64,000 nucleotides of DNA from Hydrogenophilus sp. (GTDB lineage Bacteria > Pseudomonadota > Gammaproteobacteria > Burkholderiales > Thiobacillaceae): contig DYFK01000018.1 in the NCBI GenBank assembly GCA_020725265.1, positions 1 through 64,000 on the forward strand. The letters run 5' to 3'. The position numbers and the translations under genes are program-made. This document shows, piece after piece, positions 9,277 through 46,794 of the stretch. The notes beneath the pieces were generated by a model that ran no database searches, was not told where the DNA came from, and worked only from the letters and a program-made list of their open reading frames with translations. The stretch's first letter is position 1. Each line of letters begins with the position of its first letter.

Positions 9277-10253
9277 AACGTCTCGCGCTCCTGCCGCTGC
9301 TTGCCCTGACCTTGCCCGCCCAGGCCCACCATGGTGTCGCCACGCTCGGCGCGGTCGGCCTGGAAGGCCCCGGCGCGCCGGTCGAAACCTCCAGCTCGGC
9401 GACCCTGCCGGCCGGCTCCTGGCTGGCTTCGCTGAAGGTCGACCACGCCAGGTCCAAGACCTTCGACAGCGATCCGGACAATCCGGAAGGCGATTACAAC
9501 CAGTACTGGATGGCCGGCGTCGGCTACGGCTTCACGCCCTGGCTGTCGGGCTACCTGATCCAGCCCTACAACATCAAGAAGGACGAGCCGGGCGGCCTGA
9601 ACTCGCGCGGCTTCACCGATCTGTCGGTACTCGGCGTGATCGGCTTCAAGCATGACGGCGCGTTCATGCTGGTGCCCGCCAACGAAAGCCTGGACGACCT
9701 GATGGACTGGCATTTCACGGTCTACCTGGGGGGCTCGCTGCCGACCGGCAAGGCCAACCACAAGCTCCGCGACGGCAGCATCGACCCCGGCAAATCGCTT
9801 GGCTTCGGCAAGGCCACGTTGAATTACGGCCTGACCGCGACCAAGCAGTTGAACGACAACGCCACCGCCGTATTCGAACTGGGCCAGATCCGGTTCCGGG
9901 AATATGAATACGACGACGGCCAGACCATGAAATTCGGCGCCGAGACCCGGGTCAACGCGGCCCTGTCCTACCGCCTGATGACCGACGCCGACAGCCGTTT
10001 CCGCCTGGACGGCAACGTCGAGGCCAACTACCTGGTACTCGGCCGCGACGTCGGCCAGGACGGTCCGGAGGACGCCACCGGCGGCAGGATGCTGTACGCG
10101 GTGGTCGGCACGCGTCTGTACAAGGACAACCTGAGCCTGGGCCTGGCCCTGAAGAAGCCGGTCTGGACCCGGCTGAACGAGGCCAGCGAGCAGCAGGGCG
10201 CCGAAGGCAAGGAAAAATACCGGTTCATCGCCAGTTTCTCGGCGATGTTCTGA
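9273..10253 (+). CDS. Outer-membrane beta-barrel protein of the nickel operon
   Basis: A 326-residue protein with a signal peptide (M-K-R-L-A-L-L-P-L-L-A ending A-Q-A). Many alternating amphipathic strands follow (for example Y-W-M-A-G-V-G-Y-G-F and F-T-V-Y-L-G-G-S-L-P), and the last residue is Phe (F-S-A-M-F), a normal outer-membrane insertion signal. It resembles the transporter/porin family annotated near MetA-type pathway proteins. Its place between nikL and nikM, with a 4-bp overlap upstream, suggests a channel that brings nickel across the outer membrane. This is inference; a TonB box is not evident. Confidence 0.7.
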   Translation: MKRLALLPLLALTLPAQAHHGVATLGAVGLEGPGAPVETSSSATLPAGSWLASLKVDHARSKTFDSDPDNPEGDYNQYWMAGVGYGFTPWLSGYLIQPYNIKKDEPGGLNSRGFTDLSVLGVIGFKHDGAFMLVPANESLDDLMDWHFTVYLGGSLPTGKANHKLRDGSIDPGKSLGFGKATLNYGLTATKQLNDNATAVFELGQIRFREYEYDDGQTMKFGAETRVNAALSYRLMTDADSRFRLDGNVEANYLVLGRDVGQDGPEDATGGRMLYAVVGTRLYKDNLSLGLALKKPVWTRLNEASEQQGAEGKEKYRFIASFSAMF

Positions 10254-10275
10254 GCACCCGCGCCCGCTGACTGGC

Positions 10276-10926
10276 ATGCACATTCCCGATGGCTTCATCG
10301 CGCCGCAGATGTATCTGCCACTCTATGGCGCCGCCGCCGGGCTGTGGGCGGTGGGCGCGCGCCGAATCGCCCGCGATCTCGATGAAACCACCCTACCCTG
10401 GCTGGCGGCGCTGACCGCCGCCGCGTTCGCGCTGTCCTTCATCGCCCTGCCGTTGCCCGGCGGCACCAGCGCCCACGTCACCGGCGTCGGCCTGCTGGCC
10501 GCCTGTTTCGGCATCTGGCAGGCGTTCATGGCGCTATCCCTGGTATTCGCCATCCAGGCTTTGTTGTTCGGCGATGGTGGTGTCACCACGCTGCCGCTGA
10601 ACGCGCTGGCGATGGGCTTCGCCGGCGCGCTGGCCGCGCGCGGTGTGTTCTTGTCGACGCGGCGTGTCGGCCAGACCCCGGCGCTGTTCCTGGCCGGCTG
10701 GATCGGCCTGTTCCTGCCGGCGGTGCTGATCGCGCTGGCACTGGGCGCGCAACCGCTGATCGCGGCGAACGAAGCCGGAACGCCACGCTATTTCCCGTTC
10801 GGCTGGTCGGTGACGCTGCCCGCCTTGCTCATCCCGCATGCCCTGCTCGGCCTGGGGGAAGGCGCGCTGACCGTGCTCGGCGGCCGCGCGATCGAACGCC
10901 TGCGCGAACGCTATCGCAACGATTGA
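10276..10926 (+). CDS. nikM: ECF-type nickel/cobalt transporter substrate-binding subunit (NikM/CbiM)
   Basis: A 216-residue integral membrane protein with about six or seven helices. It starts M-H-I-P-D-G-F, the invariant CbiM/NikM N terminus in which the amino group and His2 coordinate the metal. A second conserved His lies in G-G-T-S-A-H-V-T-G-V-G. It is the S component of an energy-coupling-factor transporter, with NikQ as T component and NikO as ATPase. NikR and the DUF4198 partner favour nickel over cobalt, but residues alone do not settle the metal. Confidence 0.9.
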   Translation: MHIPDGFIAPQMYLPLYGAAAGLWAVGARRIARDLDETTLPWLAALTAAAFALSFIALPLPGGTSAHVTGVGLLAACFGIWQAFMALSLVFAIQALLFGDGGVTTLPLNALAMGFAGALAARGVFLSTRRVGQTPALFLAGWIGLFLPAVLIALALGAQPLIAANEAGTPRYFPFGWSVTLPALLIPHALLGLGEGALTVLGGRAIERLRERYRND

Positions 10927-34685: not shown

Positions 34686-35366
34686 ATGGAACAGCAATTC
34701 GACATCATCGTCGCCTCCCTGACCTCGTTCTGGGGGCAGCTCGCCAGCTTCGTGCCGCAACTGATCGCCGCCGTCGTGCTGCTGCTGCTCGGCTGGCTGC
34801 TGGCCCGGCTGGCGCGTTCCGGGATCATGCGTCTGCTGACCATGCTCAAGTTCGACCGCGCCACCGAGAAATCCGGCCTGGAGGCGTTCATGAAGCACGC
34901 CGACCTCGACGTTTCCGTGGCCTCGGTGATCGGCAGTCTGGTCTACTGGCTGATCATCCTGGTGATGATCGTGACGGTCGCCAACTCGCTCGGCCTGCAG
35001 ATGGTGGCGGACCTGTTCAACAAGGTCGTGCTCTACATTCCCAACGTCATCGTCGCCATCCTGGTGCTGGTGTTCGGCACCATCCTGGCCCGCTTCATCA
35101 ACCGCCTGGTGTTCGCCTGGCTGAACAACATGGAGTTCGATGGCGCGCTGACGGTCTCCACCTTTTCCGAGTACGCCATGATGGTGTTCGTGTTCTTCAT
35201 GGCCATGGAACAGTTGCAGATCGCCAACGAACTGCTCACCGCCGCCTTCATCATCGGCTTCGGCGCCATCGGCCTGGCCTTCGCCATCGCCTTCGGCCTG
35301 GGCGCGCGCGACTGGGCGGCGAAGGTGGTGGAGCAACTGGTGAACGGCGGCAAGCGCAAGGACTGA
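34686..35366 (+). CDS. Small mechanosensitive-channel-like membrane protein
   Basis: A 226-residue protein with four or five membrane helices and the 'conserved TM helix' repeats (PF05552-like). The last helix, G-F-G-A-I-G-L-A-F-A-I-A-F-G-L-G, is followed by a short basic tail and resembles the pore helix of MscS-type channels. The large cytoplasmic vestibule domain of MscS is absent, so it is a truncated or minimal relative. It is divergently transcribed from the two-component genes; no functional link is evident. Confidence 0.7.
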   Translation: MEQQFDIIVASLTSFWGQLASFVPQLIAAVVLLLLGWLLARLARSGIMRLLTMLKFDRATEKSGLEAFMKHADLDVSVASVIGSLVYWLIILVMIVTVANSLGLQMVADLFNKVVLYIPNVIVAILVLVFGTILARFINRLVFAWLNNMEFDGALTVSTFSEYAMMVFVFFMAMEQLQIANELLTAAFIIGFGAIGLAFAIAFGLGARDWAAKVVEQLVNGGKRKD

Positions 35367-35414: not shown

Positions 35415-36563
35415 ATGCCCGCATCGCAGATCGATTCCACCCAGCTCAGCCTGCTCAAGGCCTGCCTGGCACCCGCCGACGAGATCGAACGGCACTGGCG
35501 CGCCTGGCGCGAGCAGGCCGATCTCGACAGCCTCGACGACGCCTCCAACCGCCTGCTGCCGCTGCTGTACCGGCGCCTGGAGGCGGCCGGCATCGCCGAT
35601 CCGGACATGGCCCGGCTGCGCGGCGTCTATCGTTACCACTGGTGTCGAAACCAGTTGCTGCTGGCCGAATTGCGCCGGCTGTTGCCAGCGCTGCGCGAGC
35701 TCGGCGTCGAGGTGCTGCTGCTCAAGGGCGCGGCGCTGATTCACCGCTATTACCACGACCCCGGCATCCGGCCGATGAGCGACCTCGACATCATGATCCG
35801 GCCGGAAGACATGGAAGCGGTGTTCGCCCTGCTGCGCGAGCGCGGCTGGCAGCCCAAGGTCCAGGCCGATCTGGACCGGATGCGCACGCGCCGGCTGATC
35901 CATGCCGTCGATTTCCGGCGCGACTGGAACGGCCGCGTGCTCGAAATCGACGTGCACTGGACGCCGCTGCATCGCTCCACCTGGCCGGGCGCGGAGAAGG
36001 CGTTCTGGGAGCGCTCCCTGGCGACCAGCGTGGATGGCCAGGCCTGCAGCGTGCTCGACCCGACCGATCAGTTGCTGCATCTGTGTCTGCATGGCGGCGC
36101 CTGGAACGTGATGCCGCCGTTCCGCTGGGTCGCCGACGCCTGCCACGTCCTCCGCGATGACGCCGAGGCCATCGACTGGGAGCGCCTGATCGAGGACGCC
36201 CGCCGACATCACGGCCACGTCATGCTGCGCGCGACCCTGGGCTATCTGCGCGAGGAATTCGCCGCGCCGGTGCCGGAAGCGGTGACGCGCCGGCTGGCGG
36301 CGACCCGGCCGACCCACGCGGAACGCCTGGAACACCGGCTGCTGACGCGCCAGATCGCTGCCGCCCGGCTCGACCAACTGTTGCTGCTGGAATGGTTCAA
36401 CCATTCGCGCGCCTACCCGCGCGGCGGCGTCCTGCGCCGGCTCGTGGCCTTCCCCGACTATCTCAGGCTGAGCTGGAAGCTCGACCACTGGCATCAGATT
36501 CCCGGTTTCATCACCCGTCGGCTGGTCGCCCGGCTGACCGGCAAGAGCCATCACTTCCGTTGA
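35415..36563 (+). CDS. Nucleotidyltransferase-fold family protein (NTP_transf_5-like)
   Basis: A 382-residue protein with the pattern V-L-L-L-K-G-A-A-L then P-M-S-D-L-D-I-M-I-R, the G-[GS]-x9-D-x-D-type active site of the NTP_transf_5 family (Asp pair near residues 123-125), and later L-E-I-D-V-H-W. Such proteins occur with HPr-kinase-like and PqqD-like genes in peptide- and polysaccharide-modification clusters. It opens the plus-strand half of the cluster, with 17 bp to the next gene. The target of nucleotidyl transfer is unknown. Confidence 0.75.
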   Translation: MPASQIDSTQLSLLKACLAPADEIERHWRAWREQADLDSLDDASNRLLPLLYRRLEAAGIADPDMARLRGVYRYHWCRNQLLLAELRRLLPALRELGVEVLLLKGAALIHRYYHDPGIRPMSDLDIMIRPEDMEAVFALLRERGWQPKVQADLDRMRTRRLIHAVDFRRDWNGRVLEIDVHWTPLHRSTWPGAEKAFWERSLATSVDGQACSVLDPTDQLLHLCLHGGAWNVMPPFRWVADACHVLRDDAEAIDWERLIEDARRHHGHVMLRATLGYLREEFAAPVPEAVTRRLAATRPTHAERLEHRLLTRQIAAARLDQLLLLEWFNHSRAYPRGGVLRRLVAFPDYLRLSWKLDHWHQIPGFITRRLVARLTGKSHHFR

Positions 36564-36580
36564 CCACCCGCGCCGCCGCC

Positions 36581-37303
36581 ATGTCCAGTCCCCCCCTCGT
36601 CAGCGTCATCGTCACCTGTTTCAACCGCCAGGCCTATCTCGCCGAGGCGCTCGACAGCATCCTCGAACAGCGCCTCACCGATTACGAGATCGTGCTGGTG
36701 GATGATGGCTCCACCGACGATTCCGCGCGCATCGCCGGCGAGTACGCCGAGCGCCACGGCGACCGTCTGCGCTACCACCATCAGACCAACCGGGGCGCCG
36801 CCGCCGCCAAGAACACCGGCGTGCGGCTGGCGGCCGGCCGCTACATCGCCTTCCTCGATTCCGACGACCGCTGGACGCCGGACAAGCTGGAAACCCAGTT
36901 GCGCCATGTCGAAAGCCACCCGGACATCCGCGTGCGCTTCGCCCACGGCCGCCAGTTCCCCAGCCCGGAACTGGCGCCGGAACAGCGTGCCCGCCTGCAT
37001 TGCCCGGAACAGCCGATGCCGGCGCCGGTCTCCGGCACGCTGTTGATCGAACGAGACGATTTCCTGCGCATCGGCCCGTTCCGCGAAGAACTGCGGGTCG
37101 GCATCGACGTCGAGTGGAACCTGCGCGCGCGCGCCTCCGAGCTGGTCATCGCGACGCTGCCGGAGGTGCTGCTGCTGCGCCGCGTCCATCCCGGCAATTC
37201 CGGTTTCACCGAGCGGGACACCCGCAAACAGCACACCGCCATCCTCAAGGAACACCTCGACCGGATGCGCGCGCGCAGGCCCGCCGGGCCAACTGATTCA
37301 TAG
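36581..37303 (+). CDS. Family 2 glycosyltransferase
   Basis: A 240-residue GT-A enzyme: V-S-V-I-V-T-C-F-N-R at the N terminus, V-L-V-D-D-G-S-T-D-D (nucleotide binding) and F-L-D-S-D-D-R-W (metal-binding DXD-type). The acceptor region includes I-D-V-E-W-N-L, where Glu-Trp is the usual catalytic-base area. The ATG at 36581 was chosen because V-S-V-I-V should lie close to the N terminus. It is the first of three GT2 domains encoded in a row; this one and the second look catalytically intact. Sugar and acceptor are unknown. Confidence 0.85.
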   Translation: MSSPPLVSVIVTCFNRQAYLAEALDSILEQRLTDYEIVLVDDGSTDDSARIAGEYAERHGDRLRYHHQTNRGAAAAKNTGVRLAAGRYIAFLDSDDRWTPDKLETQLRHVESHPDIRVRFAHGRQFPSPELAPEQRARLHCPEQPMPAPVSGTLLIERDDFLRIGPFREELRVGIDVEWNLRARASELVIATLPEVLLLRRVHPGNSGFTERDTRKQHTAILKEHLDRMRARRPAGPTDS

Positions 37304-37310
37304 GCAAGCC

Positions 37311-39083
37311 ATGACCGATTTTTACGACGACGAAAACCTGCAACAAACCTTTGTCGACGCCATGGCGGCGAGCTACGCCGCCGCCGCCGAACGTCACGAG
37401 GAGCGCGTCGGCCTGCTGCTCGCCGGCATCGCCATCGAACTGCGCTTCGCCAGCCCGGCGCTGCGCCATCTGCCGGCCATCCCCGCCGGCCAGACGCCGG
37501 CCCTGACCATCTCGATCTGGGACCGCGCCGGCACCGGCGTCGCCGCGCCGCCACCGCCGTTCGACAAGAAGCGCATCACCGACCGCGGCGACATCTGGGG
37601 CTTCGTCAGTCGGCGTTTCCGGCTGGCCTTCCATTACGGCGAGTTTTCCGTGAACGTGTTCGACCGCAAGCGCGGCCATGGCTATTTCTGGGTCGACGAT
37701 GCCGCCCGCCTGCCCTACTGGACCGCCGCCGCGCCGTTGCGCACGCAACTGCACTGGTGCATGGAAGCCAGCGGCCGCCAGCTCCTGCACGCCGCCGCCG
37801 TCGGTACCGAGGACGGCGGTCTGCTGCTGACCGGCCGGGGCGGCATCGGCAAATCCTCGACCGCGCTGGCCGGATTGCTGCACGGCATGGATTTCGCCGG
37901 CGACGATTACGTGGTGGTGGCGCTGGAGCCGAAACCCCGGGTCCATCCGCTGTACAGCTCGGCCAAGGTCAACCGCGACCAGCTCGATCGCTTCCCGGCG
38001 CTGGCCGGGCATCTGCGCAATCCCGACGGCGGCGCCGACGAGAAGGCCATCTTCGATCTGCTGCCCGCCTACCGGACGCGCATTCCCGACGGCATGCCGA
38101 TCCGCGCCATCCTGGTGCCGGGCGTGGCCGACCAGACCGAATCGGCGATCGACGCCAACATCGGACTGGACGCGGTGCGCCACGCCGCCGCCTTTTCCAC
38201 GGTCGAGCAACTGCCGCATGCCGGCAAGTACACCTATGGCTTCATCGACGAACTGACCCGGCGGGTGCCCGCCTATCGCCTGCGCCTGGGCCGCGACCGC
38301 GCGGCGCTGGCGACGACCCTCAAGGATTTTCTGGCGCGGCCGACGCCGCCGGCCAGCGCGCGCGCGCACGCGCCGGCGGCGGACTGGCCGCTGGTCAGCG
38401 TGGTGGTGCCGGCCTACAACCGGGAACGCATGCTGCCGGAAGTGCTCGCCAACATCCGCGGCCAGGGCTACCCCAACCTGGAGATCATCGTCGTCGACGA
38501 CGGCTCCACCGACCGCACCGCCGAGGTCGCGCGCGCCCAGCCCGACGTCCGTCTGTTCGAACAACCCAACGGCGGCCCGGCGCAGGCGCGCAACCGGGCG
38601 ATCATCAACGCGCGCGGCGAATTCATCGCCTGCCTGGACAGCGACGACCTGTGGCCGGACGGCATGCTCGCGCATCTGGTCGACGCGCTGCGCCGCGATG
38701 CGGACGCCGAGGTCGCCCGGGGCTGGCCGCAACTGGCCCGACTCGGCGCCAACGACGACTTCGAATTCGAGGGCAATCCGCTCGAAGGCTTCCCCAACTA
38801 CATCACCGGCAGCGTGTTCCGCCGCCGGGTGTTCGACCGGGTCGGCCTGTTCGATCCGGAACTGCGTTTCGGCGAGGACAACGACTGGTTCAACCGCGCC
38901 CGCGAGCATGGCGTCGGCGTCCTCCGCCCGGACTGCGTCTCCGTGATCGTGCGCCGTCATGGCGGCAACATGACCTACGGCAAGAACCTGGTGCAGCTCA
39001 ACGTGCTGCGCGTCGCCAAGAAAGTGCTCGACCGCCGCCGCGCCGGCGCCACCGCTCCGGCCGCCCCCACCAATCCGAAATAG
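37311..39083 (+). CDS. HPr-kinase-like / family 2 glycosyltransferase fusion
   Basis: A 590-residue two-domain protein. Residues 1-340 resemble HprK-related kinases: H-A-A-A-V-G just before the Walker A loop G-R-G-G-I-G-K-S-S-T (175-184), then F-A-G-D-D-Y-V. Residues 358-575 are a complete GT2 domain with V-V-D-D-G-S-T (395-401) and C-L-D-S-D-D-L-W (441-448). HprK-related kinases accompany PqqD-like proteins in some exosortase and peptide-modification loci; a single-chain fusion to a glycosyltransferase is unusual in my knowledge. It lies 7 bp after the preceding gene. The kinase target is unknown, since no HPr-like protein is encoded here. Confidence 0.8.
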   Translation: MTDFYDDENLQQTFVDAMAASYAAAAERHEERVGLLLAGIAIELRFASPALRHLPAIPAGQTPALTISIWDRAGTGVAAPPPPFDKKRITDRGDIWGFVSRRFRLAFHYGEFSVNVFDRKRGHGYFWVDDAARLPYWTAAAPLRTQLHWCMEASGRQLLHAAAVGTEDGGLLLTGRGGIGKSSTALAGLLHGMDFAGDDYVVVALEPKPRVHPLYSSAKVNRDQLDRFPALAGHLRNPDGGADEKAIFDLLPAYRTRIPDGMPIRAILVPGVADQTESAIDANIGLDAVRHAAAFSTVEQLPHAGKYTYGFIDELTRRVPAYRLRLGRDRAALATTLKDFLARPTPPASARAHAPAADWPLVSVVVPAYNRERMLPEVLANIRGQGYPNLEIIVVDDGSTDRTAEVARAQPDVRLFEQPNGGPAQARNRAIINARGEFIACLDSDDLWPDGMLAHLVDALRRDADAEVARGWPQLARLGANDDFEFEGNPLEGFPNYITGSVFRRRVFDRVGLFDPELRFGEDNDWFNRAREHGVGVLRPDCVSVIVRRHGGNMTYGKNLVQLNVLRVAKKVLDRRRAGATAPAAPTNPK

Positions 39084-39100
39084 CGACAAGGAAACCGACC

Positions 39101-39550
39101 ATGCTTCCCAGCCTGCTCAAACTGCCGCACGACGACATCGTGTTCGAAAACTACGAGGACGAAATGGTCCTGCTCAACCTGCCCGAGGGCGTCTATTTCA
39201 CGCTCGACCGGGTTGGCGGCGACTGCCTGCTCTGGCTGCTCAGCGCGCCGAACGCGGCGGCCGCGGTCGAGGCGATCCGCGCCCGTCACGCCGGCGACGC
39301 CGGCGAGATCGAGGCCGGCCTGGTCCGACTGGTCGAACAGGTCACCGGCGCCGGTCTGGCGCTCGCGCGCGCCGACGGCGAACCCGGCCTGGACCTGGAG
39401 ATCGGCCCGGTCGAAGCCGGCTCGATCTACGCGCCGCCGCGGCTCGACCGCTACGACGATATCGAGGACATCCTCAAGTTCGATCCGGTGCATGAAGTCG
39501 CCGAGACCGGTTGGCCCAACGTCCGCGCCGATGCCGACGGACCGCGTTGA
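39101..39550 (+). CDS. PqqD-like protein
   Basis: A 149-residue protein. Residues 10-95 match the PqqD winged-helix pattern: L-L-N-L-P-E-G-V-Y-F-T-L-D-R-V-G, then a helix with W-L-L-S-A and a V-E-A-I-R-A-R-H segment. PqqD proteins bind leader peptides and present them to radical SAM enzymes. A non-PqqD tail of about 50 residues follows (Y-A-P-P-R-L-D-R-Y-D-D-I-E-D-I-L). The 3' end overlaps the next gene, which encodes a radical SAM domain, by 20 bp, supporting a physical partnership. Confidence 0.75.
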   Translation: MLPSLLKLPHDDIVFENYEDEMVLLNLPEGVYFTLDRVGGDCLLWLLSAPNAAAAVEAIRARHAGDAGEIEAGLVRLVEQVTGAGLALARADGEPGLDLEIGPVEAGSIYAPPRLDRYDDIEDILKFDPVHEVAETGWPNVRADADGPR

Positions 39551-41402
39551 GCGCGACGCGCGCGCCAGCGCCAGCGTCATCGTCCGCGCCGACCGACGCG
39601 CGGAGCTGACCGCGACGCTGGCCGGACTTCAACGGCAGACCCGGCCGCCGCGCCAGATCCTGATCGTCGGCGCCGGCGGTGACGCGGATCACGCGCGGGG
39701 TTTCGCCGCGCCCGCGCCGGACATCCGGCTGCTCGACGACGCGCCGGCCACGCCGGCCGGCCAGCGCAATCACGCGCTGCGTTTCGCCGACGGGGCGTTC
39801 ATCGCCTTCCTGGAAGCCGGCGCGACACCGCGCCCGGATTGGCTGGCCGCGATCGAAACGGCCTTCGACGCCGATCCGGAACTGATCGCGTTGCAGGGCG
39901 ACCTGGGTGCCTTCGGCGATCCCCCGGCGTCGTCAGCCAGCCACGAGGACGCCGACGCCATCGATACCCGCAACTTCGCCATCCGCGCCCAGGCGATCCG
40001 CCGCTACCGCGAACCGTTCAGCGAGCGCATCGTCGCCTGCGAGCAGGAAGACCTGCGCTGGAAACTGGCGGCCGACGGCATCCGGCCGCGCCGACTGGCC
40101 GGCATCGCGGTCGACCCCGGCGCCGGCCGCGAATCGCTGACCGACCGGTACCGCCACCATTACCGGACCGGCATCGGCCTGCTGCAACTGCGCCGGCTGC
40201 ACGAAGGTTTTCGCGATCCCCGGCTGGCGCCCGCGCGTTCCAAGACCGCCGCGCTGGCCTGGCTGGCGCGCGAACTGGTCACGCCGACCCGGCCGCTCGC
40301 CGACTACCCGGCGCGTGTCGCCAGCCGTGTCGGCCTGCTCGCCGGCCTGACCGCCGGCCGCAAGGCCCGGCCGTCGCCGGCCCGGCCGGGCACGCCCGAC
40401 GATCTGCTGTTCTTCGTCACCAACAAGTGCAACCTGCGTTGCCAGCACTGCTTCTACATCGAGGAACTCGACCGCCCGACCCGCGCGCTCGACGCGGCCA
40501 CGGTGGCGCGCATCGTCGATTCGCTGACCCGCGACCTGCGCTCGGTCTCCTTCACCGGCGGCGAGCCGTTCCTGTGCCCGGACCTGGTCGAGATCTGCGA
40601 GGTGTTCGCCCGCCGCATCCGCGCGCGCGACCTGTCGATCGCCAGCAACGGCTACTACACGGCGCGCACGGTCGAGGCGGTCGAGCGCATCCTGGGCTTC
40701 GCCAACTTCAACCTGTACGTGCGCATTTCCCTGGACGGCCCGCGCGCCACGCATGACGCGCTCCGCGGCAATCCGCGCTCGTTCGACCATGCCCTGGCCA
40801 CCCTTCATGCGCTCAAGGCCTTGGCCGCGCGCCAGCCGCGCCTGCATGTCGAGATCCAGACCTCGGTCGGCGCGCGCAACAGCGCCGAACTGGAGGAACT
40901 GGCCGATTTCGTCGCGCGCGAGCTGGGCGTGTTCCACCTGTTCGAGATCGCCCGCGACGTCGGCATGTTCGCCGGCAACGACTTCCTGCTGCCCGGCTAC
41001 GGCCCGCCCGACAAGAGCGATCTGCTCGGCGCCGAGGCGATGGCCGGCGTGCTCGCGCGCATCCGCGCGATCTACGACCGCCACCTGGAGATGGGCCACG
41101 TCAACGTCTGACAGACCGGCTTCCAGTTGCGCCTGCTCGAAACCGCCGTCGAACAGGTGCGCCAGGGCCGGCCGATCCTGGCCTGCGCGACCGGCGACTC
41201 GATGGCCTGCATCCACCCCAATCTGGATGTGTCGATCTGCGAGATGACCCAGCCGATCGGCAACCTGGCCGACCACGACCACGATCTCGGCCGCCTGCTG
41301 CGCGAGCGTTTCACGCCGGCGCTGCGCGCCCGCCGCGACGCCTGTCATTGCACCAACGCCTGCAACAACAGCTCCACCCTGAAATCGCTCAGCGCGGCCT
41401 GA
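39531..41402 (+). CDS. Degenerate-GT2 / radical SAM-SPASM fusion with an internal in-frame TGA
   Basis: Starting at the ATG at 39531, residues 12-230 resemble a GT2 domain whose motifs are eroded (V-G-A-G-G in place of D-D-G; F-L-E-A-G-A in place of D-S-D-D). Residues 290-520 are a radical SAM core with C-N-L-R-C-Q-H-C (Cys300, 304, 307) and F-T-G-G-E-P. Codon 527 (41109-41111) is TGA. The same frame continues without another stop to 41402 and encodes a credible SPASM end with Cys552, 560, 570 and C-H-C-T-N-A-C. Without it the enzyme lacks its auxiliary-cluster domain. A TGG-to-TGA change is simplest; selenocysteine or readthrough is possible. The C-terminal 14 bp overlap the convergent gene. 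Confidence 0.75.
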
Positions 41403-42459
41403 CCGCCGCCGGCGCCAGCCGTTCGATGCGCGCCAGCATCCCGGCCGGATCGATGTCGCCTTTGAGCTGGCTGGCGCGCCAGTCCGGCCAGCGCGCGCGC
41501 AGCGCGGAACGGCCGGCCGCGTCGGTAACGATGCGGTCGAGCAGGGTGTAGAGGTTGTCGCGGTGGACCCGCATCCGCGCCAGCGTGCCGGCGCGGATGG
41601 TTTCCGCCGGAATCTCCAGCGCCGCCAGTTCGTCGACCGCCGCCGCGATGGCCCGGGCATCATCGGCGACGACGCGGGTCCAGGCCGGATCGAAGAGAAC
41701 GTCGCGACCGCCCAGGCTGGCGGTGGAAACCACCGGCAACCCCGTCAGCAGATACTGCGCGCTGGCGTACATGGCGCCCTCCGCCGCCGACAGGCACAGA
41801 CCCACCCGGCATTCGTTCAGGCAAGCATTGATCTCGGCCATGGAAAAGGACCGGTAGTCGGCGGCCAGCGGGTCGTTGTACCAGTGCGCGCGCGCCAGCA
41901 GTTTCCGGACCGAGGCCGCGTAAGCGGGATCGTGATAATCCATGTTTCGCGCCGTGACCAGCGCCAGGCTGGCAATGCCCGCCGCCAGCGCGTGGCGCTT
42001 GAAGGCGTCGACCCTGGCGTCATAGATGGCATCGAAGCGTTTGTCGACGCCAGCGAGAGGCCGGAAGATGTCCGCATCGACGAAGGCGTTTTGATGGACC
42101 AGGGCGGCGTCCAACCCGGCCCGCTCCAGCGCCAGCCGCTCGGCCTCGGTGTTGGCCAGGAACACGAGCTGGTGATTGGCATGCCGGCGAACGTGTCGAC
42201 GCGACCGGACCAGCAGGCGGGCGATCTGTCCAGGTTGTTCCTGGGTCCAGGAAAAGGCGACCAGCAGATGGACCCGCCGGCGCCGGTAGCGCCGGAAAAC
42301 CGGCAGCAAGGCGCCGTCGTCATGGGCCAGCACCCAGTCGAACACGTACAGGATCAGCGGGTCATCATGCAGGACCAGAGCGTCGCCACCGCGCAAATGT
42401 CGTTCCAGCCAGGCCAGCGGCCAGAATCGATACCAGCGTCGCGCCAGTTCCGGACTCAT
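41389..42459 (-). CDS. Glycosyltransferase-like protein (paralogue 1)
   Basis: A 356-residue protein resembling GT-B glycosyltransferases. The C-terminal half has E-C-R-V-G-L-C-L-S-A-A-E-G, A-S-A-Q-Y-L-L-T-G-L-P-V-V-S-T and G-G-R-D-V-L-F, the usual nucleotide-sugar pocket with an E-x7-E-like arrangement. It is about half identical by eye to the protein encoded immediately upstream (42456-43541), sharing L-R-G-G-D-x-L-V-L-H-D-D-P and H-W-Y-N-D-P-L-A. It overlaps that gene by 4 bp and the convergent radical SAM gene by 14 bp at their 3' ends. Sugar specificity is unknown. Confidence 0.7.
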   Translation of the reverse strand: MSPELARRWYRFWPLAWLERHLRGGDALVLHDDPLILYVFDWVLAHDDGALLPVFRRYRRRRVHLLVAFSWTQEQPGQIARLLVRSRRHVRRHANHQLVFLANTEAERLALERAGLDAALVHQNAFVDADIFRPLAGVDKRFDAIYDARVDAFKRHALAAGIASLALVTARNMDYHDPAYAASVRKLLARAHWYNDPLAADYRSFSMAEINACLNECRVGLCLSAAEGAMYASAQYLLTGLPVVSTASLGGRDVLFDPAWTRVVADDARAIAAAVDELAALEIPAETIRAGTLARMRVHRDNLYTLLDRIVTDAAGRSALRARWPDWRASQLKGDIDPAGMLARIERLAPAAVRPR

Positions 42460-43541
42460 GAATCTCTCCGTCCGGCGTCATCGCTCCATCGTCGTGCCTG
42501 TTCCAGACGCGCGAGCACCGCCGCCGGCGCCACCAGGTCGCCGAGATCCTCGGCGATCCAGGCTTGCCAGCGCGCTTGCCAGTCCACGCGCCGGCCGCCG
42601 CCGGCGGTCAACTGGTCGAGCAGTTCGAACAGGCGCTGTCGGTGCGCTTCCATCTTCAGCAGCGTGCGCGCCCGGATGGTTGCCGCCGGCACCGGGCAAG
42701 CACACAGGGCCCGGACCGCTTCGGCGATGGCCTCGGGCCGGTCCTCGACCACCCGCGTGTAATCGGGATCGAAGAAGACATCGCGGCCTCCCAGGCTCGG
42801 CGTCGAGACCACCGGCAATCCGGCGAGCAGGTACTGGATGCTGGCCTTCATCGCGCCCTCCTCGGCCGACAGGCACAGACCGACCCGGCACTCGTTCAGG
42901 CGGGCGTTGATCTCGCGCCGGTCGAGCAGGCGGTAATCCGGAGCCAGCGGATCGTTGTACCAGTGCGCGTGGCCGAGTTGCTCACGGACCCGGCGGCTGT
43001 GGTCCTCGTCATGCAGGCGGTCGAGCCGGCTGACGATCAAGGCCAGACTGTCGATGCCGGCGGCCAGGTAATGGCGCTTGAACGGCAGCAGGCGGGCGTC
43101 GTAGACGGCGTCGAAACGCTTTTCCACCCCCGGCAGCGGCCGGAAGATGGCCGGGTCGACGAAGGCGTTGTGATTGATGAACGCGGAATCCAGACCGGCG
43201 CGGAGGTAGGCGTCGTGCTGGCTGACGCTGTTCGCCATCATCATCACCCGATGGCGCGGATGACGGCGCAGATGCCGGGCTCGCCAGGCGGCCAGGTTGG
43301 CGACATGCCAGGCGTTTTCCCGGCACCAGGAAAACCCCATCAGCAAATGCACCGGCGCGTCCCGATGGCGACGGAACAATGGCAGCAGCGCGCCCGACTG
43401 GTGCTCCAGCACCCAGTCGCGGACATACAGGATGGGGGGATCGTCGTGCAGCACCAGGCAATCGCCGCCGCGCAGGTGGGGTTCCAACCCGGACCAGGGC
43501 AGCACGCGGTAGATCCGCGCGGCGAGGTCGACTCCGGCCAT
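42456..43541 (-). CDS. Glycosyltransferase-like protein (paralogue 2)
   Basis: A 361-residue paralogue of the 41389-42459 protein, with E-C-R-V-G-L-C-L-S-A-E-E-G-A, Q-Y-L-L-A-G-L-P-V-V-S-T and G-G-R-D-V-F-F-D-P. The ATG at 43541 (M-A-G-V-D-L-A-A-R) lies 5 bp past the radical SAM stop and gives an N terminus that aligns with the paralogue; the frame stays open far upstream but antisense-like. The pair probably arose by tandem duplication and could add two successive or alternative sugars. Confidence 0.7.
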   Translation of the reverse strand: MAGVDLAARIYRVLPWSGLEPHLRGGDCLVLHDDPPILYVRDWVLEHQSGALLPLFRRHRDAPVHLLMGFSWCRENAWHVANLAAWRARHLRRHPRHRVMMMANSVSQHDAYLRAGLDSAFINHNAFVDPAIFRPLPGVEKRFDAVYDARLLPFKRHYLAAGIDSLALIVSRLDRLHDEDHSRRVREQLGHAHWYNDPLAPDYRLLDRREINARLNECRVGLCLSAEEGAMKASIQYLLAGLPVVSTPSLGGRDVFFDPDYTRVVEDRPEAIAEAVRALCACPVPAATIRARTLLKMEAHRQRLFELLDQLTAGGGRRVDWQARWQAWIAEDLGDLVAPAAVLARLEQARRWSDDAGRRDS

Positions 43542-43546
43542 CCGGA

Positions 43547-44860
43547 TCAGCCGCGCCAGCGGTCGAGCGCGCGCCGGAGCGTGGCGCGCGACCACTCGGC
43601 CAGGCCCGGGCGCAGCAAGGGACGCAGCTCCGGCATGGCGGCGGCGACCGATTCGCCGCGCAACGCGTCCAGCCTGGCGCTGACCGATCGGAACGCGCGC
43701 GCCGACGCGCGCTCGCGCGGCAGCTCGAGCAGGCGCGTCACCGCCGCGAACTGGGCATGCTGGTCGGCCAGGTCGGCCGCGGTCAGCCCGCCGTCGGCGG
43801 CCAGCCGGTCCAGCCAGCCGCGATGCCGCTCGATCTCCTGACGGGCGCGTCGGCGCGAAGCGCGGTCGAGCACGGCGACGGAATAATGCGCCGGCGCGAA
43901 CAGCGGATGCAGTTTCAGGGCGTCGGCCGGGATCACGCCCTCCCCGGCCAGCCGTCGATGCAGTTCCGGCAGATGGAGGACGTTGAACACCGAGACGGTG
44001 ACGTCGATGCGCAGGCGGACGCGCGGCGCCTCGCGCCGGATGCGGCCGAGGTTGGCGCGGAACACCGACTCGTCGAGGCCGGCGCGGATCAGTTCGCCAC
44101 GCGCGCCGAGTCCGTCCAGGCTGGCGTTGACGGCGACGTCGTCGAAACGGTTCCAGATCCCGACGACGTCGCGGCCGGCATGATTGAGCCTGCTCAGGTT
44201 GCTGGTGTAGCGCAGGCGGACATCGGTGCGTCCACGCGCCAGCAGGGTGTCGACGATGGTGGCGTGCTCGTCCATGATCAGCGGCTCGCCACCGGCGAAA
44301 TACACCTCCTCCAGCGACTCCAGGTCGGCGGCCAGACGCCCGGCCAGGAAGGCGGCCGGATCGGCGACGGCGCGCGTCACGCTGTCGGTGGCGCGCGTCC
44401 AGCCCAATGCCCGGGCGTCGTCGTGCCAGCGTGAACTGGAACCGTGAAAACACATGCGGCATCGGAAGTTGCACAGATTGGAGAAGCGCAGATCCCAGGA
44501 CAGCGCCGGCCGTTCGGGCAGCTCGCCGCCGGGCCCGGCTTCGGCGACGCGCCGCCAGTGCCGACCGAAATCGTGGTTGAAGTGTTGCCGTTCACTGCGA
44601 AAACCGAACGCCTCCGCGCGCGCGCAGTTCGCGCAGCGGGGATCCGGCCGGTCCGTCAGCATGCCGGCGCGCAGGTCGTTGAGCGCCGGCGAACGGCGCA
44701 GGCCGTCGAGATCGCCGGCATCCAGACCGCCGAAATCGCCGCTGGCCAGGCAGCAGGGCATGGCCGGCCCGAACGCCGGCAGATGCGCGTGCACCCAGGG
44801 CGCCATGCAGAAATGGCGGCCCCGGGTCAGCAGATCATCGATTTCCGCGCGCGTGGGCAA
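43547..44860 (-). CDS. Radical SAM protein with N-terminal Cys-rich (twitch-type) domain
   Basis: A 437-residue protein. The radical SAM cluster motif is C-N-F-R-C-R-M-C (Cys130, 134, 137), followed by Y-F-A-G-G-E-P-L. Before it, C-M-A-P-W-V-H (Cys18), P-C-C (36-37) and C-A-N-C (76-79) form the Cys-rich N-terminal segment seen in 'twitch' radical SAM proteins, which bind one auxiliary iron-sulfur cluster. It is 27 bp from the preceding radical SAM gene and 5 bp from the following glycosyltransferase gene. The substrate is unknown; a peptide or sugar is likely given the company. Confidence 0.8.
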   Translation of the reverse strand: MPTRAEIDDLLTRGRHFCMAPWVHAHLPAFGPAMPCCLASGDFGGLDAGDLDGLRRSPALNDLRAGMLTDRPDPRCANCARAEAFGFRSERQHFNHDFGRHWRRVAEAGPGGELPERPALSWDLRFSNLCNFRCRMCFHGSSSRWHDDARALGWTRATDSVTRAVADPAAFLAGRLAADLESLEEVYFAGGEPLIMDEHATIVDTLLARGRTDVRLRYTSNLSRLNHAGRDVVGIWNRFDDVAVNASLDGLGARGELIRAGLDESVFRANLGRIRREAPRVRLRIDVTVSVFNVLHLPELHRRLAGEGVIPADALKLHPLFAPAHYSVAVLDRASRRRARQEIERHRGWLDRLAADGGLTAADLADQHAQFAAVTRLLELPRERASARAFRSVSARLDALRGESVAAAMPELRPLLRPGLAEWSRATLRRALDRWRG

Positions 44861-44887
44861 GCTTCGATTCCTCTCGACTGCGGCCGC

Positions 44888-45880
44888 TCAGGCGACCGCG
44901 CGGGCTCGCTCGATCCGGTTTTCGGCCACGGTCCGGCCTTGTCCCGGCGACAGATCCTCGCCGGCCTCCAGACGCTCCAACGCCTCGAAATCCACCAGCG
45001 CCTCGGTCGGCGCGTCGTGTTCGGCCAGCCAGTCGGCGCGCGCCACCAGGCGATGCGGCTCGACCCGGCCGACCACGCCCAGACAGTGCCGGCAGGCCCG
45101 CAACGGCTGGCGCGAACGCAAAAAGTCGAGGATGCGGCCGCGCATGTCCGGGCCGCCATCGATCGGCACCGCGTCCAGGCGCGCGCTTTCCGGTGGCGCG
45201 CCGATCACCGTGGGAACGTGGACGCTCTGCACGCATTTGTGGAAATGGCCGTCGTGGATGATATGGCACCCCCAGACCCGGGCCATCTTGCAGGTCAGAT
45301 AGATGCGCCGGATCAGGTTTTCGTCGTCGGTACCCGGCCGCGAGAAGGACACGCGGAAATCGTCGAAGGCGACGAAGCGGATTTCGACGTCCATGGCCGT
45401 GGCCTTGTCGAGCATCCGCGCGATGAAATCCGCGTCGACACCGGTTTCCGGGTACACCGAGACCTCGATCCGGTCGAGCAGCTTCCAGCTCGCGTCCGGC
45501 AGGCGCGGCAGCAACATGCCGTTGGTCAGCAACAGGATACCGTCGGCGATGCCGGTGGCGCGCAGGGCCTCGACCACGCGCGCGAACTCCGGATGCAGCA
45601 ACGGCTCGCCACCGACGATCTTGGCGTAGCGGGCATGGTAGATCGGCGCCATGCGCGAGAAATCCCGCGTCACCGTGGCGGCGTCCGGGTAGCCCTTCCG
45701 GCGGATCGGCGAAGCCTGATTGCAGTGCGAGCAGGAGATGTTGCACTGGTAGGCGGCGATCAGCTCGCAACTCCAGGGCGGCTCGATCCTGCCGTCGCGG
45801 AAACGGACCAGCCCGGGCGGCATGCCGGCGGCCTCCTGGAAGGCGCCACGCATCCGGTCGATCCAGCCTCGCAGGCGCAT
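44888..45880 (-). CDS. Radical SAM protein
   Basis: A 330-residue protein with the motif C-N-I-S-C-S-H-C (Cys46, 50, 53), I-V-G-G-E-P-L-L-H-P and downstream Cys in Y-L-T-C-K, W-G-C-H, H-K-C-V and C-R-H-C that could bind an extra cluster (SPASM-like). The ATG at 45880 gives M-R-L-R-G-W-I-D-R-M-R and lies 11 bp after the rluB stop, so this gene may be transcribed from the rluB promoter. It is the first gene of the minus-strand half of the modification cluster. Confidence 0.8.
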   Translation of the reverse strand: MRLRGWIDRMRGAFQEAAGMPPGLVRFRDGRIEPPWSCELIAAYQCNISCSHCNQASPIRRKGYPDAATVTRDFSRMAPIYHARYAKIVGGEPLLHPEFARVVEALRATGIADGILLLTNGMLLPRLPDASWKLLDRIEVSVYPETGVDADFIARMLDKATAMDVEIRFVAFDDFRVSFSRPGTDDENLIRRIYLTCKMARVWGCHIIHDGHFHKCVQSVHVPTVIGAPPESARLDAVPIDGGPDMRGRILDFLRSRQPLRACRHCLGVVGRVEPHRLVARADWLAEHDAPTEALVDFEALERLEAGEDLSPGQGRTVAENRIERARAVA

Positions 45881-45891
45881 GTCGATGGCGG

Positions 45892-46794
45892 TCAGCGCTC
45901 GCCGCGGTTGAGGTGCCGGCGCCGGTAAGGATGGCCGATCTTGCTGGTGGCGGGTTCGGGCGCGGGCGGCTTTTCGTCGGCGTGGGTCGCCTCGCCGCCC
46001 TTGCCGATGCCGCACCAGTCCAGCAGCGCTTCGACCTCGGCTTCCGGCAATTCCTCGCGCATGCCGCGCTTGAGCCTCGGCGGCATGGCGACCGGACCGA
46101 AACGCACGCGAATCAGCCGGCTCACGGTCAGGCCGACATGTTCCATCAGGCGGCGGACCTCGCGATTGCGGCCCTCGCGGATGATCAGTCGATACCACTG
46201 GTTGACGCCCTCGCCGCCGGCCGGAACGATGCTGTCGATCTGGGCGATGCCGTCGTCGAGCTCGACGCCGTCGAGCAGCATCCGCATCTTGTCGGCGCCC
46301 AACTCGCCCAGCACGCGCACCGCGTATTCGCGCTCGACCTCGTAGCGGGGATGGCTCAGGCGGTTGGCCAGTTCGCCGTCGGTGGTGAAGATCAGCAGAC
46401 CCTCGGTGTTGAAATCGAGCCGGCCGACCGTGATCCAGCGGCCGCCGCGTACCGGTGGCAGGTTGTCGAACACCGAGGGCCGGCCTTCCGGATCATCGCG
46501 CGAGACGATCTCGCCTTCCGGCTTGTGGTAGACCAGCACGCGCGGCAAAACCTTCTTCCAGGTCAGGCGCACCACCCGGCCGTTGACCTTGACCACGTCG
46601 CCCTGCTTGACCCGGTCGCCGACCTGGGCCGGTTGACCGTTGATGCTGACCCGGCCCTGCATGATCAGTTCTTCCATGTCCCGGCGCGAGCCGAGGCCGG
46701 CGCCGGCCAGCACCTTGTGCAGTTTTTCGGATTGCGGTCGCAGCTCGTCGGGACTGACCTTGAGCGGTCGTCCCATGTAGGAATAGCGCGGCAT
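45892..46794 (-). CDS. rluB: 23S rRNA pseudouridine synthase RluB
   Basis: A 300-residue pseudouridine synthase that modifies 23S rRNA near position 2605. The S4 RNA-binding domain covers about residues 22-80 ([15 protein letters not shown]), and the catalytic domain has the Asp of G-R-L-D-F-N-T-E-G. The gene follows scpB after 101 bp, the common arrangement in gammaproteobacteria. The basic tail ([11 protein letters not shown]) is typical. The following radical SAM gene starts only 11 bp downstream. Confidence 0.92.

Follow-up and report, generated by a model that had tools for sequence, protein, structure and literature searches.

What does a bacterium make with a gene island in which a peptide-recognition protein of the PqqD type, an HprK-like kinase, glycosyltransferases and radical S-adenosylmethionine (rSAM) enzymes lie together? 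The question is raised by positions 35415-45880 of a 64,000-nucleotide stretch of DNA from Hydrogenophilus sp. (contig DYFK01000018.1; the whole stretch is called the window below), which has a G+C content of 68% and is part of a 3.3-Mb genome in 36 contigs. The island holds nine genes, here called A to I, of which A to E lie on the plus strand and F to I on the minus strand, tail to tail. This convergent layout, proposed in an initial annotation, was borne out by open reading frames (ORFs) together with Pfam and NCBIfam matches. Our best reading is a non-lasso, PqqD-guided phospho-glycosylation system, and we put at about 45% the probability that the island is one unit whose product is a peptide, presented by D, that carries a glycan anchored through phosphate; D is a PqqD-type protein with a recognition element (RRE) for ribosomally synthesised and post-translationally modified peptides (RiPPs). 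The argument is built on gene content, the recurrence of a core cassette, a gene fusion, an insertion site occupied by a single block and the conservation of a protein tail; from these we infer every chemical step.

The following features make up the core:

35415..36563, plus strand: A, nucleotidyltransferase-fold protein of the NTP_transf_5 family, 382 amino acids (Pfam PF14907, E = 9.7e-47)
36581..37303, plus strand: B, family 2 glycosyltransferase (GT2; PF00535, E = 1e-35)
37311..39083, plus strand: C, HprK-like kinase (about residues 1-350) fused to a GT2 domain (about residues 351-590); Hpr_kinase_C 25.0 bits, below the Pfam cut-off of 33.3; GT2 E = 8.5e-33
39101..39550, plus strand: D, PqqD/RRE protein of 149 amino acids with a conserved C-terminal tail (PF05402, 30.0 bits, cut-off 23.4)
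39431..39547, plus strand: tail of D, residues 111-149, with the leader-like strand PPRLDRYDD followed by DPVHEVAETGWPN

Genome contigs were scanned with the HprK domain alone as seed (alignment A5, one peptide pattern), which gave 67 loci, a Mesorhizobium-rich sample rather than a census. GT2 lay no more than 6 kb from HprK in 66 of the 67 loci, NTP_transf_5 in 61 and PqqD in 62 (both by tblastn); the conserved tail was present in 66. Four loci have the tail and no PqqD tblastn match (L092, L094, L136 and L144); PqqD is the best or only Pfam family of their tail ORFs, and its score passes the cut-off in L092 but falls short in the other three. As to the six loci without a tblastn match to NTP_transf_5, HprK lies about 1.3 kb or less from a contig end in L087, L135 and L146, L095 and L133 seemingly lack the gene, and L137, from an alphaproteobacterial metagenome-assembled genome (MAG), carries instead, by Pfam, an NTP_transf_5::HprK fusion in one ORF of 712 amino acids (L137:8492-10630). 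L137 is also the only HprK-seeded locus with neither tail nor GT2 and perhaps represents a separate branch. Together the loci span at least eight phyla (Thermodesulfobacteriota, Gemmatimonadota, Cyanobacteriota, Actinomycetota, Planctomycetota, Bacteroidota, Pseudomonadota and Bacillota). On a Crinalium plasmid, PqqD, NTP_transf_5 and HprK are consecutive.

When 398 genomes of the phylum were searched with the PqqD pair, the same set of genes emerged. Matches were obtained in 33 genomes and were full-length with the tail in six, our own included; in the five others HprK and GT2 were adjacent in every case and NTP_transf_5 in four within the stretch examined. The 67 loci already include at least four of the five organisms (genomes G585, G591, G528 and G524 as L087, L097, L115 and L143), and this route is therefore a cross-check and not an independent sample. 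The genes that accompany the core here are rare beside it elsewhere: relatives of I were found in two of the 67 loci (fused in L082, and in L134), of H in one (L116), of F and G in three, and of the rSAM part of E in none. The co-occurrence that the initial annotation had expected thus holds widely for A to D; the rSAM genes it had placed in the core are optional, with zero to two occurrences each. We read this as what may be a fixed core, A to D, with exchangeable tailoring genes. As a separate observation, four loci (L145, L146, L147 and L148) from rumen MAGs titled Solobacterium, Lachnospiraceae and Eubacterium have closely similar cassettes with the same PqqD tail and, in three of them, an ABC protein that is 98% identical, a likeness that may reflect recent transfer or a binning error.

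The tail of D follows the consensus DxxDLLxxDP[IV]H[ED]V...GWP at the C-terminus of the PqqD protein. Exactly one copy of DP[IVL]H[ED]...GWP with a stop codon no more than 16 residues further on was counted in 66 of the 67 loci. BLAST picked 64 PqqD ORFs, every one of them with the tail, and in the loci covered by a six-frame search the motif stood solely where PqqD-type ORFs end. Among 21 dereplicated sequences, mean information was 3.07 bits in the tail, 2.07 bits in the RRE body and 1.51 bits in the linker, and D128, P129, H131, G137, W138 and P139 were invariant in all 21; in 51 sequences, these six with G30 and Y32 were the sole invariant columns. A profile of the tail alone matched six of the 398 genomes with E-values of 4.2e-10 or better, once each, and these are the six genomes with the cassette. 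Three further matches (E-values of 1e-3 to 8e-3) are short, lie in frames of 968-1298 amino acids and look like chance.

An AlphaFold2 model of D (49 sequences, mean pLDDT of the model 84) showed a confident RRE fold. For residues 111-120, which include a strand at 115-118, the mean was 91; a short helix follows, and blocks of residues 121-149 had values of 50-56. D belongs with the lasso-B1-type RREs according to a profile match to TbiB1 (E = 5.7e-19), and the top six Foldseek hits were all TbiB1 or TfuB1, lasso B1 proteins solved with their leader, two of them at E < 0.001. Its score for the NCBIfam family lasso_PqqD (35.5 bits) is below the cut-off of 70, and among the solved PqqD relatives none covered the tail. 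Lasso leaders carry the motif YxxPxL (PMC10368454). The related pattern [YF]xxPx[LIVF] occurs in eight of 25 dereplicated tails, two of them cyanobacterial, and in all eight at position -18 from DPxH. Over 2000 shuffles of the tails the pattern averaged 0.63 occurrences and never reached eight, in a comparison for which the motif was picked after viewing the sequences and kinship was ignored. In the mechanism that we propose, the leader-like strand of D (about residues 111-120) would occupy the RRE domain of the same protein in cis, and D would present the conserved C-terminal tail to other enzymes.

In the kinase part of C, residues H160, G175, G178, G180, K181, S182, D198 and D199 are conserved in five of five aligned sequences, with a spacing identical to that of H148-G163-G166-G168-K169-S170-D186-D187 in BsfK, a peptide kinase that is strongly stimulated by the RRE protein BsfB1 (PMC10368454). 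C belongs to the same superfamily as the HprK-related kinases A and B (TIGR04352 and TIGR04355), and its scores of 23.6 and 29.4 bits are far below their cut-offs of 200; among the matches listed, neither C nor D reached a curated NCBIfam cut-off. In pseudomycoidin (psm) biosynthesis, PsmK phosphorylates the peptide and PsmN, annotated as a nucleotidyltransferase, puts one or two hexoses on the phosphoserine (PMC9266682). RRE-assisted tailoring of a peptide by a kinase and a nucleotidyltransferase is described in these sources for lasso peptides (PMC10368454, PMC9266682). The same trio without lasso enzymes, accompanied by GT2s, suggests phosphate-anchored glycosylation. In the proposed sequence, C would phosphorylate the presented peptide, A would add a hexose or hexose-phosphate onto that phosphate, as proposed for PsmN, and the sugar would be lengthened by the GT2 domains of B, C and perhaps E together with the GT-B proteins F and G.

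Lasso tailoring is known from the same sources to involve PqqD, a kinase and a nucleotidyltransferase, but it is hardly credible that the island is itself a lasso peptide gene cluster, since neither the B2 leader peptidase nor the cyclase was found with the cassette. Transglut_core3, the B2 family, had no match in the own genome; it was present in five of 20 other cassette genomes and in none within the cassette stretch, as judged by contig number and position (L089 was checked directly). No Asn_synthase relative was detected in 69 loci and the window by tblastn with the four Asn_synthase regions of the own genome, whose six matches in that genome all lie on other contigs. We therefore rejected the lasso explanation. 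With the psm, paeninodin and bsf lasso clusters the island shares a lasso-B1-type RRE and the identical spacing of the kinase motif, and with psm also a nucleotidyltransferase gene, the likeness of PsmN to A being one of annotation. In contrast to these clusters, the island comes without a B2 protease, an Asn-synthetase-like cyclase or a separate precursor that we could find, and has GT2s, a C-terminal tail on the RRE protein and an HprK::GT2 fusion, which recurs in three loci (L082, L083 and L090).

Mycofactocin and pyrroloquinoline quinone (PQQ) are products of RRE-guided, widely spread pathways, each with one conserved peptide. The island resembles the mycofactocin system in having GT2s, and B and C gave NCBIfam matches to MftF below the cut-off. 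Unlike both, it has a kinase/nucleotidyltransferase core, its rSAM genes are optional and the candidate peptide is the C-terminus of the RRE protein itself. No published description of the cassette was found in the open-access literature, as judged by titles, openings of abstracts and selected passages, among them passages of PMC12710340, with subscription journals lying outside the search. The parts are known; their stand-alone combination and the tail we have not seen described in that literature. As the trio occurs without lasso enzymes and with glycosyltransferases in at least eight phyla, phosphate-linked glycosylation of peptides may reach far beyond the lasso examples. One tail per cassette provides a simple marker for further members, and a fixed tail on the RRE protein makes the precursor question directly testable on one small protein.

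The tail itself may be a substrate built into D, or it may serve as a docking handle. The first option would make the system RiPP-like, with recognition domain, leader and substrate in one protein and the near-invariant DP[IV]H[ED]V...GWP phosphorylated or glycosylated in place. Such a system would lack lasso enzymes, occur in at least eight phyla and here be decorated by SpeY-like and other rSAM enzymes. We regard this as a tentative, rather unlikely proposal; if it is true, such strong conservation would be easier to reconcile with a product that is structural or acts like a cofactor than with a variable antibiotic. As a docking handle, the tail would recruit the kinase, the nucleotidyltransferase or a GT2, and D would bind a separate substrate encoded elsewhere in the genome. 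This is possible, if somewhat doubtful, and stands close to the built-in substrate because several tails have no Ser/Thr acceptor. The tail offers no universal hydroxyl acceptor, RRE proteins stimulate kinases (PMC10368454), and in the model the tail would read as a short acidic-hydrophobic linear motif that starts as a helix.

As to a separate precursor, no ORF of 18-130 amino acids within 6 kb was convincing across genera. Eight short-ORF clusters cross genera, each joining two groups (Mesorhizobium and L133, or L135 and L138) outside the cassette, and probably represent shadow ORFs of other genes. Small ORFs, variable in length and mostly Arg-rich, are shared by up to 30 of 43 loci of the Mesorhizobium/Aminobacter type in the 1.3 kb that precede PqqD. 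Within the island, the A-D and F-I genes and the two flanking genes are separated by at most 48 bp, with all other gaps shorter or replaced by overlaps, so that a separate precursor gene would fit nowhere but in the stretch between E and F. These results speak against a separate substrate, but a fast-evolving or unlinked precursor is possible and weakens the objection. The earlier remark that no precursor is visible overlooked the conserved tail of D, which tracks with the cassette (66 of 67 loci).

Several points weigh against the proposed phospho-glycosylation of a peptide that D presents. The leader-like motif in its strict form is present in only eight of 25 tails (eight over all 69 sequences), was chosen post hoc and is missing from rhizobial, Bacillota and several other tails; the shuffles were blind to kinship. 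The tails of L089, L090, L116, L126 and L141 have no Ser/Thr after DPxH, and therefore no universal acceptor exists there for a Ser/Thr kinase. Phosphorylation persisted after a triple Ala change of YxxPxL (PMC10368454), and according to PMC9266682 PsmN may nucleotidylate its substrate with a host enzyme adding the sugar, or may come into play only once the host has glycosylated it. Docking of residues 111-120 in the leader groove is a presumption. Moreover, few of the 67 core loci have rSAM or GT-B genes as neighbours, the island is without a transporter, and E carries a stop codon.

Whether the minus-strand genes belong to the same system was examined with the remaining genes and the flanks of the island:

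39531..41111, plus strand: E, GT2-like domain and rSAM core, up to an in-frame TGA (GT2 28.8 bits, cut-off 23.3; Radical_SAM E = 7.2e-17)
41112..41402, plus strand: open frame of E beyond the TGA, Cys-rich SPASM-like end
41389..42459, minus strand: F, GT-B-like protein, paralogue of G (PF13692, Glyco_trans_1_4, weak, below cut-off)
42456..43541, minus strand: G, GT-B-like protein (PF13692, Glyco_trans_1_4, weak, below cut-off)
43547..44860, minus strand: H, N-terminal-twitch rSAM protein (NF033640, 287.4 bits, cut-off 170)
44888..45880, minus strand: I, putative SpeY-like twitch rSAM dehydrogenase (Radical_SAM 34.5 bits, cut-off 29.5)
34686..35366, plus strand: left flank, gene of a transmembrane (TM)-helix protein that adjoins rluB in relatives
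45892..46794, minus strand: right flank and island edge, RluB-type pseudouridine synthase, a name read off the sequence without a family search

F and G are 56% identical, and CX3CX2C is present in each of E, H and I, as read from the translations. In L082, the closest relative of the cassette (HprK 50% identical), NTP_transf_5 and an I-type rSAM domain are encoded by one ORF of 694 amino acids. This fusion joins the type of the first plus-strand gene of the window to that of the last minus-strand gene and so links the two strands. The insertion site gave a second line of evidence. Of 22 same-genus relatives, 21 yielded 22 rluB loci; in eight of these the TM-helix gene lies directly beside rluB, with about 40-540 bp between the ends of the tblastn matches, as against 10.5 kb in the window. 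In the other 14 the TM-helix gene was not seen within the stretch examined, in some because the contig ends. The 10.5-kb block was absent from all eight relatives with both flanks visible, and both strands therefore came or went as a single block.

The rival reading, two unrelated clusters brought tail to tail by accident, has two points in its favour: E, F, G, H and I are missing from most cassette loci, and the sole relative of I in 368 other genomes of the class (L181:9772-10734, genome G150) has no HprK, PqqD or NTP_transf_5 match in the 19.9 kb around it, only a generic GT2 within 10 kb and a gene reading like ParA/MinD nearby. The strands thus separate in most relatives, which the initial annotation had named as a sign of accident, yet the fusion and the single-block site speak against it, and relatives of H, G and I each adjoin a cassette elsewhere. 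We consider accidental neighbourhood very improbable, and these sequence comparisons indicate that the grouping of both strands is not accidental. The proposal of one modification system is supported by this fusion and site as well as by the recurrence of the core and the lasso-kinase motif.

Gene E is the least certain member of the island. Its frame is interrupted by TGA 41109-41111, which separates the rSAM core from the SPASM-like end, and then stays open to 41402. The short gaps and overlaps reported earlier were confirmed except in the E-F stretch, where 277 bp remain if the TGA is a stop codon; the 14-bp overlap of E with F (41389) exists solely with read-through. The piece beyond the TGA had no Pfam or NCBIfam match, and the rSAM relatives L006, L009, L015, L019 and L022 cross the position of the TGA, in a variable stretch, without a stop. 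Recoding as selenocysteine was rejected, as no tRNA-Sec was among the RF01852 matches: the sole match over the cut-off is tRNA-Ser(cga), and seven others are Ser, Gly, Lys and Leu tRNAs (eight of 11 genome matches examined, the remaining three being weaker). E may be broken, truly split or mis-sequenced, through a mutation or a sequencing error. Among 117 genomes of the family, 98 had a match to the rSAM or GT2 part of E, and none of the matches listed spanned both parts. H and E would add more radical chemistry, E possibly being non-functional now.

For I, the best-placed rSAM enzyme, sequence searches point in a different direction from the PqqD-guided radical modification of a peptide that had been expected. 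Residues 22-300 matched PDB 7wzv with E = 1.4e-63 (phmmer), an entry whose title names the twitch rSAM dehydrogenase SpeY. I is 38-40% identical to SpeY (PDB 7wzv, 7wzx and 7x0b) over nearly the full length, and both keep CX3CX2C and four further cysteines, C195, C214, C261 and C264. The four top Foldseek hits were also SpeY and agree with the sequence search; they came from a low-confidence model (mean pLDDT 58), and the likeness is claimed because of the sequence search and not the model. SpeY acts in spectinomycin biosynthesis, on the sugar part of spectinomycin. By analogy, I probably oxidises a sugar hydroxyl, and this likeness leads us to expect sugar oxidation rather than PqqD-guided radical chemistry on a peptide; I would act on the glycan of the proposed product. 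I differs from SpeY in its surroundings, as its relative is fused to NTP_transf_5 and it sits with an RRE/kinase cassette.

A product made of sugar could also mean a surface polysaccharide or glycolipid pathway, in which sugars would be the substrates of both kinase and nucleotidyltransferase, and D would serve as a regulator or scaffold without any peptide product. Cassette loci often have two or three GT2s, L086 has a GT-1, relatives of the GT-B genes lie in plasmid glycan loci, and a Poly_export/SLBB gene (Wza-like; L134:13536-14594) is found just downstream of the cassette that carries an I-type rSAM gene. ABC transporters are near the cassette in at least seven of 69 loci (L082, L083, L085 and L144-L147; by Pfam or tblastn, with part of the ORFs scanned). 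Such a pathway is nevertheless unlikely, since nearly every cassette has an RRE protein whose nearest solved structures are leader-bound lasso B1 proteins, and C carries a peptide-kinase motif.

The remaining tailoring genes occur sparsely. No match to G was found outside the own genome at E 1e-8 in 369 genomes of the class; beside the cassette, relatives of G (38-40% identical) are present in Aminobacter (L105, L126 and L127), probably the result of one event, and the H relative is that of Cohaesibacter (L116). A further G relative (36%; L042:14965-16044) lies on a plasmid of Agrobacterium salinitolerans, surrounded by condensation-domain, AMP-binding, acyl carrier and formyltransferase genes. 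In L082, the ORF after the fusion (L082:4498-5748) has weak SPASM/rSAM matches and a BLASTP match to H with E = 0.002, for which we do not claim H-like status. Downstream of the same cassette, the closest to that of the window, lie two adjacent rSAM genes (L082:8532-9593 and 9571-10662) with CofH/MqnC C-terminal domains.

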